From positions 1 through 26,765 of IMG/VR virus record IMGVR_UViG_3300042484_001286: a stretch of 26,765 nt of DNA. One strand, given 5' to 3'. The notes beneath the pieces were generated by a model. The model was not told where the DNA came from. It made no database searches and worked only from the letters and a program-made list of their open reading frames with translations. Positions within the stretch are counted from its first letter, which is position 1. Each line of letters opens with the position of its first letter. The position numbers were made by a program, and so were the translations under genes. Below, piece after piece: positions 4,556 through 25,413 of the stretch. Source of the DNA: a virus.

Positions 4556-4915
4556 TTTATGTGTATTACCAGCGGTTTGTGTGATGCTGGTGATTTATTT
4601 ATCCAGGTGATTCTGTTGCTAAGTTCACCTGGTGAAACTCCGCTTACCTTATTCAGGCAGCAAGTGCATACTTATTATCGTTTGCGGTTAAATCAATTGC
4701 TTCTTCGACCGAGTGTCCTCAATCCTAACGTCTTTAGCTTTGACGATTCTCCATCTTTATACTTATTACTCTGTCGAAACTATTTCACCCCCATCAGAAG
4801 CACATTGCCACAACTATAGTGTGTGTTTGCTACCGATAACTCGGTTCGTCAATATACTTTTGGTGGAGGTGGGCAGGTATTGCACCGCCGTCCAAAATAA
4901 CTTTTTAAAAACTTC
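4556..4915 (-). ncRNA. ssrA: Circularly permuted two-piece tmRNA (tag ANDNKYALAA)
   Basis: Ribosome-rescue RNA in the permuted order: acceptor piece first, then an intervening segment, then the coding piece. Acceptor piece (about 4915-4861): T-arm-like hairpin at 4889-4872, then CACCUCC, discriminator A and encoded CCA ending at 4861. Intervening segment 4860-4793. Coding piece from 4792: GGGGGUG pairs all seven bases with CACCUCC, with a G-U at the third pair, the alanine identity pair. The tRNA-like conserved UUCGAC follows. AGAGUAAU (4772-4765) pairs with GUUAUUUU (4901-4894) as helix P2. The tag frame at 4685-4653 begins at GCAAACGA and encodes A-N-D-N-K-Y-A-L-A-A-stop (E. coli ANDENYALAA). 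Downstream, CCAGGTGA/TCACCTGG and ACCAGC/GCTGGT stems fit the pseudoknot region. Outer ends are estimates. Plus-strand ORFs here are shadows. Confidence 0.93.
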
Positions 4916-4921
4916 TACGAA

Positions 4922-5032
4922 TTACTTCAATATAAAAAGTATTGCTAATACACCTACAGCAAATGCACAGGCACCCATGTAGAAAGCAAAACTTTTTACT
5001 TTATATTCTTTTACACAATCTTTACTAGGCAT
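4922..5032 (-). CDS. Tiny single-pass membrane protein (36 aa)
   Basis: 36 residues: a polar start (MPSKDCVKEYKVKS) followed by one strongly hydrophobic helix (FAFYMGACAFAVGVLAILFIL) and a final Lys. The ATG at 5032 overlaps the stop of the upstream tiny gene (TAATG) and has a GAAAGGAT ribosome site, so it is preferred to the longer in-frame start at 5146, which would overlap that gene in another frame. Its stop sits a few bases before the probable start of the tmRNA acceptor piece. Function unknown. Confidence 0.65.
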   Translation of the reverse strand: MPSKDCVKEYKVKSFAFYMGACAFAVGVLAILFILK

Positions 5033-13175: not shown

Positions 13176-14459
13176 TTATCCTCGTATAGCTGCAGTATGA
13201 CGACTACCAGCACTTATTTGTGTCCAATTAGTAAATCCACCAACTACTGATACTGGACTACTTCTGGCGGCATTGCTATTATCACCTAATCTACCATATG
13301 GGTTTTGGCCACCCCAAGCCCATGCGGTACCATTGTTACGTACAGCCAAAGTAGCGGTACCACCAGCACTTATTTGTTTCCAATCAGTAAATCCACCAAC
13401 TACTAATACTGGACTAGCCTTAAGGCCAGAAGCAGTGTTATCACCTAGTTTACCTGAACTAGCATAGCCCCAACACCAAGCAGTACCATTGTTACGTACA
13501 GCTGCGGTATGTTGTATGGCAGCACTTATTTGTTTCCAATCAGTAAATCCACCAACTACTGATACTGGACTACTACGGATTGTGGTGGTATTATCACCTA
13601 GTGTGCCATTACTGTTTGATCCCCAACACCAAGCAGTACCATTGGTACGTACAGCTGCAGTATGATTACTACCAGCACTTATTTGTGTCCAATCAGTAAA
13701 TCCACCAACCACTAATGTTGGACTACTTCTGTCGGTGGTGTTACCGGTTCCAAGGGCGCCATAGGTACCCCGGCCCCAACAATAAGCAGTACCATTGGTA
13801 CGAACACCTGCAGTATGACCGTCACTTAAGGCTTTACCACCAGCAATTTCTTTCCAATCAGTAAATCCACCAACTACTGATACTGGACTACTTTTGTTGA
13901 CGGTAGTACCATCACCTAGTCGACCATTAGCGTTTAGCCCCCAAGCCCAAGCAGTACCATTAGTACGTACCCCAAAAGTGGAGTTATAACCAGCACTTAT
14001 TTGTGTCCAATCAGTAAATCCACCAACTACTGATACTGGACTACTTTTGTTGACGGTAGTACCATCACCTAGTTGACCAGCGCTGTTTAAAGCCCAACAC
14101 CAAGCACTACCATTGTTACGAACACCTGCGGTGTGTTGACCACCAGCACCTATTTGTTTCCAATCAGTAAATCCACCAACTACTGATACTGGACTACTTT
14201 TGTTGACGGCAGTACCATCACCTAGTCGGCCAAGTGCGCCGGAACCCCAAGCATAAGAAAGAAGCAACGCTTTTGATGTTCCAAAAAAATTAAATACACT
14301 AATTGCACCACTACTAGGGACCGCACCATTAGTTCCTGTTGTGCCAGAAGGAACTATTCCACCTCCAGCATAATATTCATTTAATGAAATAGGATTTGTA
14401 CCACCAAATTCGGTTTGAATGTCATTTAAGCTAAGTGCTCCGGATGCGGGTAATGGCAT
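13176..14459 (-). CDS. RCC1-repeat beta-propeller protein, probable virion adhesin
   Basis: 427 residues. The N-terminal ~65 residues (MPLPASGALSLNDIQTEFGG, PISLNEYYAGGG, SGAISVFNFFG) are a module I recognise at the start of phage structural proteins. Then seven tandem repeats of 51-55 residues follow, each with G-x-L-G-D-G, SSPVSVVGGFTDW, QISAG, HTAAVR-N-G and a W-C/A-W end. Seven such blades make one complete RCC1-type propeller. Repeats are nearly identical in their conserved parts and vary at loops (for example YNST, KALSDGHT, SNHT). A T4 late promoter box 35 bases upstream supports expression late, as a virion part. A receptor-binding or tail-associated role is inference. AAGGAATATTAAT precedes the ATG. 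Confidence 0.85.
   Translation of the reverse strand: MPLPASGALSLNDIQTEFGGTNPISLNEYYAGGGIVPSGTTGTNGAVPSSGAISVFNFFGTSKALLLSYAWGSGALGRLGDGTAVNKSSPVSVVGGFTDWKQIGAGGQHTAGVRNNGSAWCWALNSAGQLGDGTTVNKSSPVSVVGGFTDWTQISAGYNSTFGVRTNGTAWAWGLNANGRLGDGTTVNKSSPVSVVGGFTDWKEIAGGKALSDGHTAGVRTNGTAYCWGRGTYGALGTGNTTDRSSPTLVVGGFTDWTQISAGSNHTAAVRTNGTAWCWGSNSNGTLGDNTTTIRSSPVSVVGGFTDWKQISAAIQHTAAVRNNGTAWCWGYASSGKLGDNTASGLKASPVLVVGGFTDWKQISAGGTATLAVRNNGTAWAWGGQNPYGRLGDNSNAARSSPVSVVGGFTNWTQISAGSRHTAAIRG
13187..14250 (-). repeat. Seven tandem ~155-bp repeats inside the RCC1-like gene
   Basis: The same DNA block returns seven times with a spacing near 150-165 bases. A long near-identical stretch (plus strand CAATCAGTAAATCCACC, then AACTACTGATACTGGACTACT) is followed by variable segments. 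Similarity at the DNA level, not only the protein level, suggests recent duplication or ongoing gene conversion among blades. It is coding and is not a CRISPR array. Confidence 0.85.
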
Positions 14460-17812: not shown

Positions 17813-18649
17813 TTATACCTTCAATAGTTGTGGTAATGTATAAACGGATTCCATATATGTAGAAGGATTATCCAATACACTATATTCTAAATCACCCGAG
17901 CGTCTTTGGCAATAGTTTACTTGAAAATCGCAATTGTTTACCAATTTAAAGGTATCTACCATTTGTCTAACAGTATGACCTTTACCATGGCCTAGATTCT
18001 CTAATGAATTGGCAGGTGTTTCAATTGCCTTTTGAATAGAATGGCATATTTCATTCACATGAACATAATCTCTAACAGGTGTGCCATCTGGTGTATTGTA
18101 ATCACCACCATATAAATTAAATACTCCTGTTTCTCTTGCTTTCATTAGATTATACATCAACCCATCCATATTAGTGGGTGAAATCCCATCAGACCCAATC
18201 ACATTATAAAATCTGAATGAAGTGAAAGTTTTTGTATTTTCAATGCAATATCTTCCTACTATATCTTCAGCACATCTTTTACTCAAAGCATATGGGTTGA
18301 TGGGATTAGCGGCTGTGCCTGTCGAAGCAAACACAAAATTCTTGTAATTTAAATTCGTTAATACATTATGTGTACCATTGATATTGGTATCATAATACTC
18401 GTATGGTTTTAATACTGATTCGTTTACTTTGACCAATGCAGCCAAATGAACCGCGGTATCAAACTCATCAGAATAACATAATTGATAACCATTCGTAATA
18501 TCATATTGAAGAAACTGTTTGGGTAACAAATAATCATTCAAACATGGTTTGATATCAGTACCAAACACCTCGTATCCTTCCTTTTTCAGGAGTTTTACAA
18601 GGTGTTGGCCAATGTAACCAGAACTGCCGGTTATCAATACTTTTTTCAT
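17813..18649 (-). CDS. NAD-dependent sugar epimerase (GalE-like SDR)
   Basis: 278 residues of the extended short-chain dehydrogenase type. The NAD-binding loop is GSSGYIG (8-14) with an acidic residue after strand 2 (TDIKP). VHLAALVKVNESV follows. The catalytic set is Ser/Thr at 109-110 (FASTGTA) and YxxxK at Y120-K124 (PYALSK), and a later RDYVHVNEIC. GalE-type enzymes swap the C4 hydroxyl of UDP-sugars; other sugar-nucleotide epimerases or dehydratases share these motifs. It is shorter than GalE (about 338 aa). It may feed nucleotide sugars to the glycosyltransferases at 6295-12590. The ATG overlaps the rubrerythrin stop (TAATG). Confidence 0.85.
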   Translation of the reverse strand: MKKVLITGSSGYIGQHLVKLLKKEGYEVFGTDIKPCLNDYLLPKQFLQYDITNGYQLCYSDEFDTAVHLAALVKVNESVLKPYEYYDTNINGTHNVLTNLNYKNFVFASTGTAANPINPYALSKRCAEDIVGRYCIENTKTFTSFRFYNVIGSDGISPTNMDGLMYNLMKARETGVFNLYGGDYNTPDGTPVRDYVHVNEICHSIQKAIETPANSLENLGHGKGHTVRQMVDTFKLVNNCDFQVNYCQRRSGDLEYSVLDNPSTYMESVYTLPQLLKV

Positions 18650-19089
18650 TAAGCTTGTTCTGCTTTATGTGCTTCTAATGTTTTACGGAACTTATTGGCA
18701 TGACTACGCTCTGCTTTGGCTAATGTTTCAAACCAATCAGCAATCTCATCAAAGCCTTCATCACGAGCGGTCTTTGCCATACCAGGATACATATCGCTGT
18801 ATTCATGGGTTTCACCGTGAATAGCGGACTCTAGCGCTTCTGCTACGGTTGCAGCCGATAGACCAGTACCTGGATCTCCAGCACCACCAATCAATAGATA
18901 TTCCATATGACCATGTGCGTGGCCTGTTTCACCTTCAGCGGTAGAACGGAACACAGCGGCTACATCTGGTGAGCCTGCTACATCGGCCATGTTTGCGAAA
19001 TACAAATAACGGCGATTAGCCTGTGATTCACCTGCAAATGCTTCTTTTAATGCTAATTCGGTACGAGTACCTTTTACTGATTTTGCCAT
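18649..19089 (-). CDS. Rubrerythrin (di-iron domain only)
   Basis: 146 residues making a four-helix di-iron bundle that, in rubrerythrins, reduces hydrogen peroxide. Ligands are all present at the classical numbers: E21 ([13 protein letters not shown]), E54 ([11 protein letters not shown]), E93 and E96 (HGETHEY), and E127 and H130 (AERSH). The C-terminal rubredoxin domain usual in rubrerythrin (total about 190 aa) is missing. A separate rubredoxin gene lies immediately upstream, separated by one base, so the pair probably replaces the fused form. Its codon use looks somewhat less AT-rich than its neighbours (many GCN, GGN codons), suggesting a distinct origin; not measured. AGGAGAAG precedes the ATG. 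Confidence 0.93.
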
Positions 19090-23465: not shown

Positions 23466-24869
23466 TTATGCAATTTCTAATTCAGGTGTGTAACTATTAC
23501 CTAACTTTTTATTGGCTTTTGCATCAATCAATTGGCAGTTATTTTGTGTTGTTTGACCTCCAAATGAATATGGTATTTTACTATGATGTCCCTGCCACAA
23601 TTCTGAATCATAAATTTCATCTTCAGGAATAATTTTTCCTGTAATAGGACAAATACCATTTTGATTCAACCAAGCTTGATATTTTTCTCTCTTTGAAAAG
23701 AATCTCTTATCATCTAGGGTGTCAGAAATAATATCCTTTGATGCCTTGTTAATGTCTTGAACAATTAAGTCGAATCTAGCACTCAGGTTTAGTTTAGTGT
23801 TATTACGACCACAAGTTTCATACAACAATACTTCACCTTGAGGCGAGGTCCAGGCTACTTTGTGTAAACGACCAGTTTCAGTTGTATTAAACCATTCAAA
23901 GAATTTTTTATCATCAACAATTTTTTTGTTTTGTTTATAAAGTGTGATTATGGTTATAAACAAATTTAACAGAGTAGCTTTGTTTTTAAATTTCTTTGTA
24001 CCAAATTTACCAATTAAGTCAATAGTTCTTTGTATACATTCTTTTCCGCCATGAGAAATGAATTGTGGCCAAACATTTGAATTATCTTCATACGATTCAT
24101 TTAAATCTTTTGGACTTAAACTGTGATTTGTGCCAAATGCATGGACACAAGCCATTCTTGCAATCATTTCGTCAATTTGATAACCTTGATTTCCACTTTT
24201 GTAGATATTTTTTAATGCTTCTACACTGGAGGCACCCAATTCACGAATTTCTTTTGCAATAGGAGTGAGTTTTGCATTTCTTTTCTCTTGTGCATTTAAA
24301 TCACGACCACTATTGATATTCAAAAATAAATCAGAACAATCTTGACGGCTAGCCACATGATACTCAACCACGGTAATCTGTGAATCTTCGTAAGCTTTTT
24401 GTTTTATTTCTTCTGGTATTTTGGAAAATGTATCATTTGAACTATCAATATTAATGACAACACTTCTTAAATATTTTCCGTGATTGATAGGAACTTTGTT
24501 GTTATAAAATCCTCTCAAAGCAACAGTTCGGTTGTTCCCGTCAATGGAAATCCATTTGTATCCCAAGTCTTGCCAAGATTTGAAATAGTCATAATCTGGT
24601 GTGTTTTTAACCACTTTAACCAAAGATTTTTCAATATTAACCACAACAATTGGACTTGGTGCATTACCCAACATAACAGAGGTGCAATAATCGGTCATCT
24701 GTTTTAATGGCCAGCAAGCATGGCGTTGAAAAGATAAATCCAAAGCTACACCATTTAAAAAATCATGTGTAAACTCTGTTCTGTTTAAAAAATATCTTTT
24801 TGTTTCAAAATCAGTAAAATGAAAGGTGGGTAAATTTTTTGATAACTTTTTTTTGTTTAATTTTGCCAT
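23466..24869 (-). CDS. DUF262-HNH protein (GmrSD-like restriction-type nuclease)
   Basis: 467 residues from the ATG at 24869 (GAGG 6 bases upstream), not the in-frame ATG at 24881. N-terminal ~230 residues resemble DUF262, the ParB-like nucleotidase/DNA-binding domain of GmrSD type IV restriction enzymes. LDLSFQRHACWPLKQMTDYC (DUF262 YQR...W) is followed by LGNAPSPIVVV and SIDGNNRTVALRGF, with DGNNR at 110-114 (family DGxQR). A helical middle follows. The C-terminal ~60 residues are an HNH/DUF1524-like nuclease: NGICPITGKIIPEDEI, then QGHHSKIPYSFGGQTTQNNC and NKKLGN. Such proteins cut (often modified) DNA. In a phage it may attack rival phages or host DNA, or be a selfish nuclease. The upstream 170-base spacer is structured. 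Confidence 0.82.
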   Translation of the reverse strand: MAKLNKKKLSKNLPTFHFTDFETKRYFLNRTEFTHDFLNGVALDLSFQRHACWPLKQMTDYCTSVMLGNAPSPIVVVNIEKSLVKVVKNTPDYDYFKSWQDLGYKWISIDGNNRTVALRGFYNNKVPINHGKYLRSVVINIDSSNDTFSKIPEEIKQKAYEDSQITVVEYHVASRQDCSDLFLNINSGRDLNAQEKRNAKLTPIAKEIRELGASSVEALKNIYKSGNQGYQIDEMIARMACVHAFGTNHSLSPKDLNESYEDNSNVWPQFISHGGKECIQRTIDLIGKFGTKKFKNKATLLNLFITIITLYKQNKKIVDDKKFFEWFNTTETGRLHKVAWTSPQGEVLLYETCGRNNTKLNLSARFDLIVQDINKASKDIISDTLDDKRFFSKREKYQAWLNQNGICPITGKIIPEDEIYDSELWQGHHSKIPYSFGGQTTQNNCQLIDAKANKKLGNSYTPELEIA

Positions 24870-24904
24870 TTTAATCCTCATAATAAAAATAATTTAAATT
24901 ACAA

Positions 24905-25046
24905 CCATATTGAAACACACTGGTATCTCGGAGTGTATGTGTAGAGCAGTCCGGCCGGTTCTCTCCACTTCAACTCCCCATTGAATCTTGATCCGGATTC
25001 AACTCAATGTATTTCAATATGGCGGCCTCTCCCGAGGGGCCATATT
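24905..25046 (-). ncRNA. Structured intergenic RNA candidate with two competing helices
   Basis: A 170-base gene-free spacer holding nested inverted repeats. CCATATTGAAA (24905-24915) pairs with TTTCAATATGG (25012-25022), extending by three more pairs past one mismatch, and encloses ~95 bases. Inside are TTGAATC/GATTCAA, (A)CACT/AGTG(T) and a CCGGCCGG palindrome, giving a branched fold. The 25016-25023 strand can instead pair with GCCATATT at 25039-25046, around a CCTC-GGGA-GAGG stem with a GNRA tetraloop on the minus strand. The two pairings share bases and exclude each other, as in a switch or attenuator. No ORF longer than 10 codons or tRNA is seen. The strand and function are inferences. 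Confidence 0.55.
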
Positions 25047-25053
25047 CTATTGC

Positions 25054-25413
25054 TTACGCTGTAACAGGTTGTGCTACGGGTTTTACATTAGAGGTAAACG
25101 AACCATCGGATGATTGCTTAGCAATTCCACTTGGTGACGATAACTTACCAACATAACGGCCGTTTGCATCAAACTCGGTGAAGTTAACCAACTGATATGC
25201 CTTTACTTTACGGCCATCTTTGATTACTTTCACAATACCACCATCTTTACGAATGTTATAGATGTTGGTAGAGAGTCGGTACAGCACCTTCTCTTGGTTA
25301 GTGCCTTTAAATACTGTAGCAATTTCATCAGGTGATACTGGTTTACCACTCAACATTACTTGGGTAATTTTCTCATGACGATTGATTTTGCCTTTGCGAA
25401 CTGTTAAAGCCAT
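25054..25413 (-). CDS. Winged-helix-like phage protein (119 aa)
   Basis: 119 residues. The first ~75 look like a winged-helix DNA-binding fold: helix HEKITQVMLSGKPVSPDEIA, helix KVLYRLSTNIYNIRKDGG and a wing of two strands, VKVIKDGRKVKAYQLVN. The rest is Gly/Ser-rich and flexible (SPSGIAKQSSDGSFTSN...). It may be a small regulator or DNA-handling protein. GAAGGAG precedes the ATG. It lies between the CobS-like ATPase and the structured spacer; similar small proteins near cobS occur in aquatic T4-like phages, as far as I recall. Confidence 0.7.
   Translation of the reverse strand: MALTVRKGKINRHEKITQVMLSGKPVSPDEIATVFKGTNQEKVLYRLSTNIYNIRKDGGIVKVIKDGRKVKAYQLVNFTEFDANGRYVGKLSSPSGIAKQSSDGSFTSNVKPVAQPVTA

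Follow-up and report, generated by a model that had tools for sequence, protein, structure and literature searches.

Promoter-early stem-loops (PeSL) are mobile cassettes of T4-type phages, where they border hypervariable gene slots. Phage T4 itself encodes two stable RNAs, C and D, in its tRNA cluster. A third system to be considered is the permuted, two-piece tmRNA, the intervening sequence (IVS) of which is defined as absent from the mature molecule (PMC11915505).

The locus described here lies in a viral contig (G000) of 26,765 bases, the whole of which was analysed and is referred to as the window. It contains genes for a T4-type gp32, a tRNA-Tyr and a permuted tmRNA. All convincing genes in the list of open reading frames are on the minus strand, so that the two structures of main interest, hairpin A and the branched element W, are almost certainly read on that strand. 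By eye from their translations, minus-strand genes for an RCC1-repeat-like tail protein (13176-14459), a rubrerythrin-like protein (18649-19089) and a PstS-like phosphate-binding protein (42-1055) are probable, and these sit in a T4-like phage.

Structure and conservation of element W

Hairpin A and W occupy the spacer between a gene for a 119-aa phage protein and a DUF262/HNH-like gene (Table 1), with 38 bases between the 3′ end of W and the ATG of the latter; no ORF of at least 50 aa in the window's list overlaps W. The 119-aa protein has 168 relatives in IMG/VR and matched no family in family searches. The DUF262/HNH-like gene belongs to PHROG 2598, of unknown function, matches no Pfam family at its cut-off and shows a weak, below cut-off match of its HNH region to TIGR01865 (E 8e-4).

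Table 1. Positions of genes and RNA features in the window.
Feature	Position	Strand	Remarks
Permuted (two-piece) tmRNA	4562..4954	-	Tag ANDNKYALAA; ARAGORN; Rfam RF04321, 111 bits
Module M	4793..4860	-	In the tmRNA intervening segment, between acceptor-piece CCA and coding piece
DUF262/HNH-like gene	23466..24866	-	Downstream of W; one of several interchangeable downstream genes
Element W	24905..25022	-	118 nt; structured, branched RNA with a long closing stem
W terminal stem, 3′ arm	24905..24922	-	CAGTGTGTTTCAATATGG
Stem P2 (GGAGT/ACTCC) enclosing P3 (GTGGAG/CTCTAC)	24930..24977	-	Helices 3 and 4
Stem-loop P1	24980..25003	-	GTTGAATC-8 nt-GATTCAAT; helix 2 in the covariation analysis
W terminal stem, 5′ arm	25005..25022	-	CCATATTGAAATACATTG
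Hairpin A	25016..25046	-	AATATGG-CCCCTCGGGAGAGGCCG-CCATATT; directly 3′ of the 119-aa gene stop
119-aa phage protein gene	25054..25413	-	Conserved; upstream of hairpin A/W; fixed neighbour of the hairpins

Hairpin A consists of AATATGG (25046-25040), a CCTC-GGGA-GAGG stem with a GNRA loop, and CCATATT (25022-25016). The last of these is common to both structures, forming the 3′ arm of the hairpin and the 5′ end of W. A preliminary description of this DNA had noted a long helix closing a branched fold of about 118 bases and a second upstream copy of one strand around a GNRA-capped stem. Both are present; the second copy is the AATATGG of hairpin A, and the 11 plus 3 bp given for the helix correspond to the uninterrupted part of 18 bp. 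The complete terminal stem is 18-19 bp long (18 bp with 89% Watson-Crick plus G-U pairs). Above it stands a structured apex of 82 nt with conserved loops, among them the near-invariant AGAACCGGCCGGACTG at the tip of the P2/P3 arm.

The 142-base region covering both structures folds with z = -4.3 on either strand, a stability reached by none of 200 shuffles, and W alone gives -44.2 kcal/mol (z -4.9). Six W sequences were aligned, from the window, three relatives (L083, L092, L084) and two copies in another phage (L181). These represent two contexts, with four copies at one locus, and the independent events are fewer than the cell count since the four locus copies and the two L181 copies form two clusters. 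Pairing is kept in 99.1% of the pair cells of the alignment. Changes on both sides are seen at 11 pairs, including pairs of the terminal stem, P1 and P2, a number reached by none of 500 shuffles and compared with 0-2 in slid controls. All cells of the terminal stem (helix 1) are paired, with six pairs changed on both sides, and P1 contributes four such pairs. The covariation check that had been proposed revealed compensatory changes in W, and the W fold is confirmed as a real, structured RNA.

That the RNA was not recognised earlier as a known class also stands. A search of Rfam 15 with positions 24850-25100 gave nothing at the gathering threshold, the best loose E-values of 2.4-6.7 being chance matches with scores well short of gathering, and blastn with W, M, the spacer and the tmRNA as queries found no real match among cultured phages. 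A likeness of GAGAGGACCGG to the sarcin-ricin loop of 23S rRNA was considered and dropped; its GAG pairs in P3 and an 11-base match is near chance. On the minus strand between 24700 and 25480 no sigma-70-like promoter was found; a phage- or host-specific promoter type is possible.

Exchangeable modules on hairpins

Relatives were gathered with two queries, the AAA ATPase and the 119-aa protein, which gave many freshwater phage contigs. Hairpin A is common to 11 loci, the window and ten close relatives, and the frame CCATATT...AATATGG is kept in all of them (as AATATAG in L156). The frame is a plain hairpin in L082, L085 and L156, holds a second module, M, in L086, L087, L090 and L091, holds W in the window, L083 and L092, and in L084 holds M then W in tandem. 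Since this cargo is diverse and sometimes absent, W is dispensable at the 119-aa locus. Exchange of the downstream genes (HNH, 72-aa, NUMOD/HNH-like, 392-aa and others) occurs precisely where the hairpin ends on its 3′ side, and in the 11 loci the kind of cargo and the gene that follows vary independently. In the window the gene after W is the HNH gene, in L083, L084 and L092 it is the 72-aa gene, and the HNH homologue of L156 sits 3′ of a cargo-less hairpin. With the stem kept and the cargo swapped regardless of what follows, W does not look like a leader of the HNH gene. The slot downstream of 25054 is a gene-exchange hot spot in L014, L017, L091, L156 and the window, and often holds HNH/NUMOD-type homing-endonuclease-like genes.

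More distant relatives have other structures in place of hairpin A. Some are ordinary terminators (L004, L013, L021 and L110) and the version in L144 ends in T7. Others, termed A′ hairpins, lie 3′ of the 119-aa gene, have the core CUCGUU-GUGA-AACG(C) and end in ACC. Certain distant relatives add B-type hairpins with stems of the CACCTTATTGAA...TTCAATAAGGTG kind. Further structured B-type cargo or members of the A′ family follow the 119-aa gene in L031, L105, L113, L029 and L076. Cargo of the L076 type occurs again in L048, L072 and L024, and that of the L105 type in L113; the two types compared with Rfam, from L029 and L105, gave no match. The L024 copy (about 690-860) is directly 3′ of a promoter-like TTGACT...TATAAT site, and a transcript may for that reason start with it.

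W and M also occur away from the 119-aa gene. A pattern search located W twice in L181. The start of the first copy coincides with the CCA of tRNA-Glu (714-789) and its end lies just before tRNA-Arg (912); the second ends about 10 nt 5′ of tRNA-Tyr (1437). A looser pattern gave ten further matches, all unrelated and chance-like. The loop palindrome CCGGCCGG is present in five W copies and is replaced by CCTGCAGG in the second L181 copy. In this change between the L181 copies (820-1413) an 8-base palindrome is kept, a single event that suggests the loop may engage in loop-loop pairing or dimerisation.

Module M, recognized by the signature CGAACCGA-N-GGTAGCAA, is found mostly in the intervening segments of permuted tmRNAs of many phages, directly 3′ of the acceptor CCA. 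It also lies immediately 5′ of the tmRNA acceptor piece in the L219 type, 5′ of tRNA-Met in L248 and, as noted above, in the slot of W after the 119-aa gene. In L255 and L290 it is 3′ of a tRNA-like sequence ending in CCA. On the minus strand of these two contigs the tRNA-like sequence spans about 70 nt (GCGGTGTGTAATAGTACGAT...GCATAGCAGACCACCGCTCCA), with an acceptor-like stem and a GCGGTG...CACCGC-TCCA end; ARAGORN does not call it, and it may be a new small RNA or else an aberrant tRNA. For M the alignment followed the structure, a MAFFT-based covariance model having been set aside because its stems were misaligned. The module is a three-way junction with fixed junction nucleotides, the closing G being present in 41 of 41 distinct sequences, on a 10-bp stem that varies in sequence with compensation. 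Rows were preselected for stems of at least 8 bp, which biases the percentage of paired cells and leaves the fixed G unbiased. The strict M pattern has no match in the GTDB species genomes (about 85,000 cellular genomes); a looser pattern has 20, none with the M layout and five with a candidate stem of 6-10 bp. Another module, with ends CCATATA.../...TATATGG, lies 3′ of tRNA-Lys in L256. Most tRNAs in the loci examined carry no such element.

Possible roles of the modules

W and M are unlisted phage RNA families. They, the L076 and L105 types and others are unrelated to each other and have one architectural slot in common, a hairpin with UGG at its 3′ end. The start of this hairpin often coincides with the terminal CCA or ACC of an RNA that lies upstream, be it hairpin A, a tRNA or the acceptor half of a permuted tmRNA, and the UGG folds back to pair over that terminus. 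We favour, tentatively, an explanation in which W and M are phage-restricted structured modules that sit on hairpin tips at RNA boundaries and may serve in processing or protection. A border role in maturation or protection is the best supported, given that both modules are found repeatedly where tRNA or tmRNA pieces end and pair there over or next to the CCA. The long stem would mark an RNA border in the precursor transcript. An endoribonuclease, phage-encoded or from the RNase III/E class of the host, might cut at the stem, or the stem might block exonucleases, with the conserved core binding a factor that directs cutting or protection. At 24905-25046 the structure would set the AAA-ATPase/119-aa transcript apart, at its 3′ end, from the cistron that follows, or protect that end. 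What lies upstream here is not a tRNA but a protein gene with hairpin A, so that to call hairpin A an RNA end is only an analogy, and the border function as a whole is read from context. Among the roles proposed in the preliminary description, a processed RNA appears to fit best, given the relatives at tRNA and tmRNA ends. A bolder proposal, which we consider rather unlikely, is that W, M and at least three more interchangeable modules form a large, phage-only set that serves as an RNA maturation code with its own dedicated reading factor, or are new self-cleaving RNAs.

The main rival to a border role is that the modules are non-autonomous mobile cargo, selfish structured elements that insert in hairpin tips and at CCA ends and have no function in the host transcript; homing endonucleases or template switching in replication might mobilise them. 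This is a lesser though real possibility. Close relatives differ at a single site (none, M, W or M and W in tandem), the same cores are found at unrelated sites, and by eye several of the downstream genes look like HNH or homing endonucleases. However, an element derived from a MITE or IS should have conserved terminal inverted repeats and none were seen; the outer stem differs by location and is kept paired by compensation, which needs selection on structure. In addition M is not highly repeated, with 0-2 matches at two or fewer mismatches in each of 14 large phage records, and recurrence at the borders of stable RNAs is not random. The two explanations are not exclusive and both may hold together.

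It is improbable that the palindromes act in DNA, as cruciform-prone hot spots for recombination or homing at the border of the hypervariable gene slot. The exchange of downstream genes exactly at the hairpin 3′ end would suit such a role, as would the arrangement in the window, where the HNH gene lies cleanly between W and the 72-aa gene. Against this, single-stranded loops conserved in sequence and compensation that tolerates G-U pairs point to RNA, and the modules are also present in tmRNA and tRNA precursors, which are not sites of gene exchange.

Even less probable is that W, M or both are unrecognised self-cleaving ribozymes that release RNA ends. The junction nucleotides are near-invariant, and the modules adjoin ends that need to be cut, above all in the tmRNA intervening segment. 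However, the core is separated from the RNA end by a variable stretch of about 10 to 20 bp, which means that cleavage by the core does not fall on the CCA itself, and no resemblance to the ribozymes of Rfam was found.

The preliminary description had pointed to mutually exclusive helices, with three copies of a short element allowing one pairing at a time. The geometry is correct but only 7 of 18 bp exchange, by a 7-bp branch migration between hairpin A and W, and the form with hairpin A extended is disfavoured. In the window it is worse by 3.1 kcal/mol (-48.6 as opposed to -51.7), with a pair probability of about 0.01 or less. The penalty is 1.5-3.5 kcal/mol in most relatives, L156 alone preferring the A-extended form. 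Nor are both helices conserved. The W stem covaries, whereas the alternative helix shows one single-sided change only and has no counterpart in L144 or the A′ families; with the upstream AATATGG copy missing in more distant relatives, the proposed switch is not a conserved feature. A G+C-rich hairpin with a U-run was sought as an intrinsic terminator and the sole match is on the non-coding plus strand, leaving the transcribed strand without a terminator tail. That the helices form a riboswitch, attenuator or leader for the HNH gene is therefore very unlikely, despite three complementary copies in the window and ten relatives, the tipped balance in L156 and, by eye, a similar UGG...CCA...UGG layout at the second L181 copy, because the cargo is exchangeable and tied to no particular downstream gene. 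We infer that the overlap of hairpin A with W permits at most a 7-bp strand exchange during transcription and is not a ligand switch.

Comparison with known RNA systems

A border role for W and M can be set beside several described elements. PeSL are, like W, intergenic stem-loops of T4-like phages that are independent of the downstream gene and found at sites of gene exchange. W differs in having no promoter-like site, in its branched, conserved core and in its occurrence at tRNA and tmRNA ends. T4 RNAs C and D, likened here by description, are likewise structured phage RNAs of small size (about 120-140 nt) with tRNA genes around them, whereas W base-pairs across its neighbour's CCA and is also present in the spacer of an mRNA. 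3′-Terminal hairpins and intrinsic terminators are likewise positioned after a stop codon, but W in the window is followed by no U-run and carries the structured apex of 82 nt.

Two unlisted structured RNA families are defined in freshwater T4-like phages, and the swapping of unrelated RNA cargo on one conserved stem is a clear natural case of modular RNA evolution. The modules also open the cutting of permuted tmRNAs and of phage tRNA arrays to direct testing. The comparison with the tmRNA intervening sequence (Rfam RF04321, RF01849) is the closest for M, which fills it in many phage tmRNAs, that of the window included. W was not seen in a tmRNA, and both modules also occur outside it. In the Rfam alignment of the window tmRNA the intervening segment is an unstructured insert; the M within it is structured, and so fills a part of the permuted tmRNA that the Rfam model leaves without structure.
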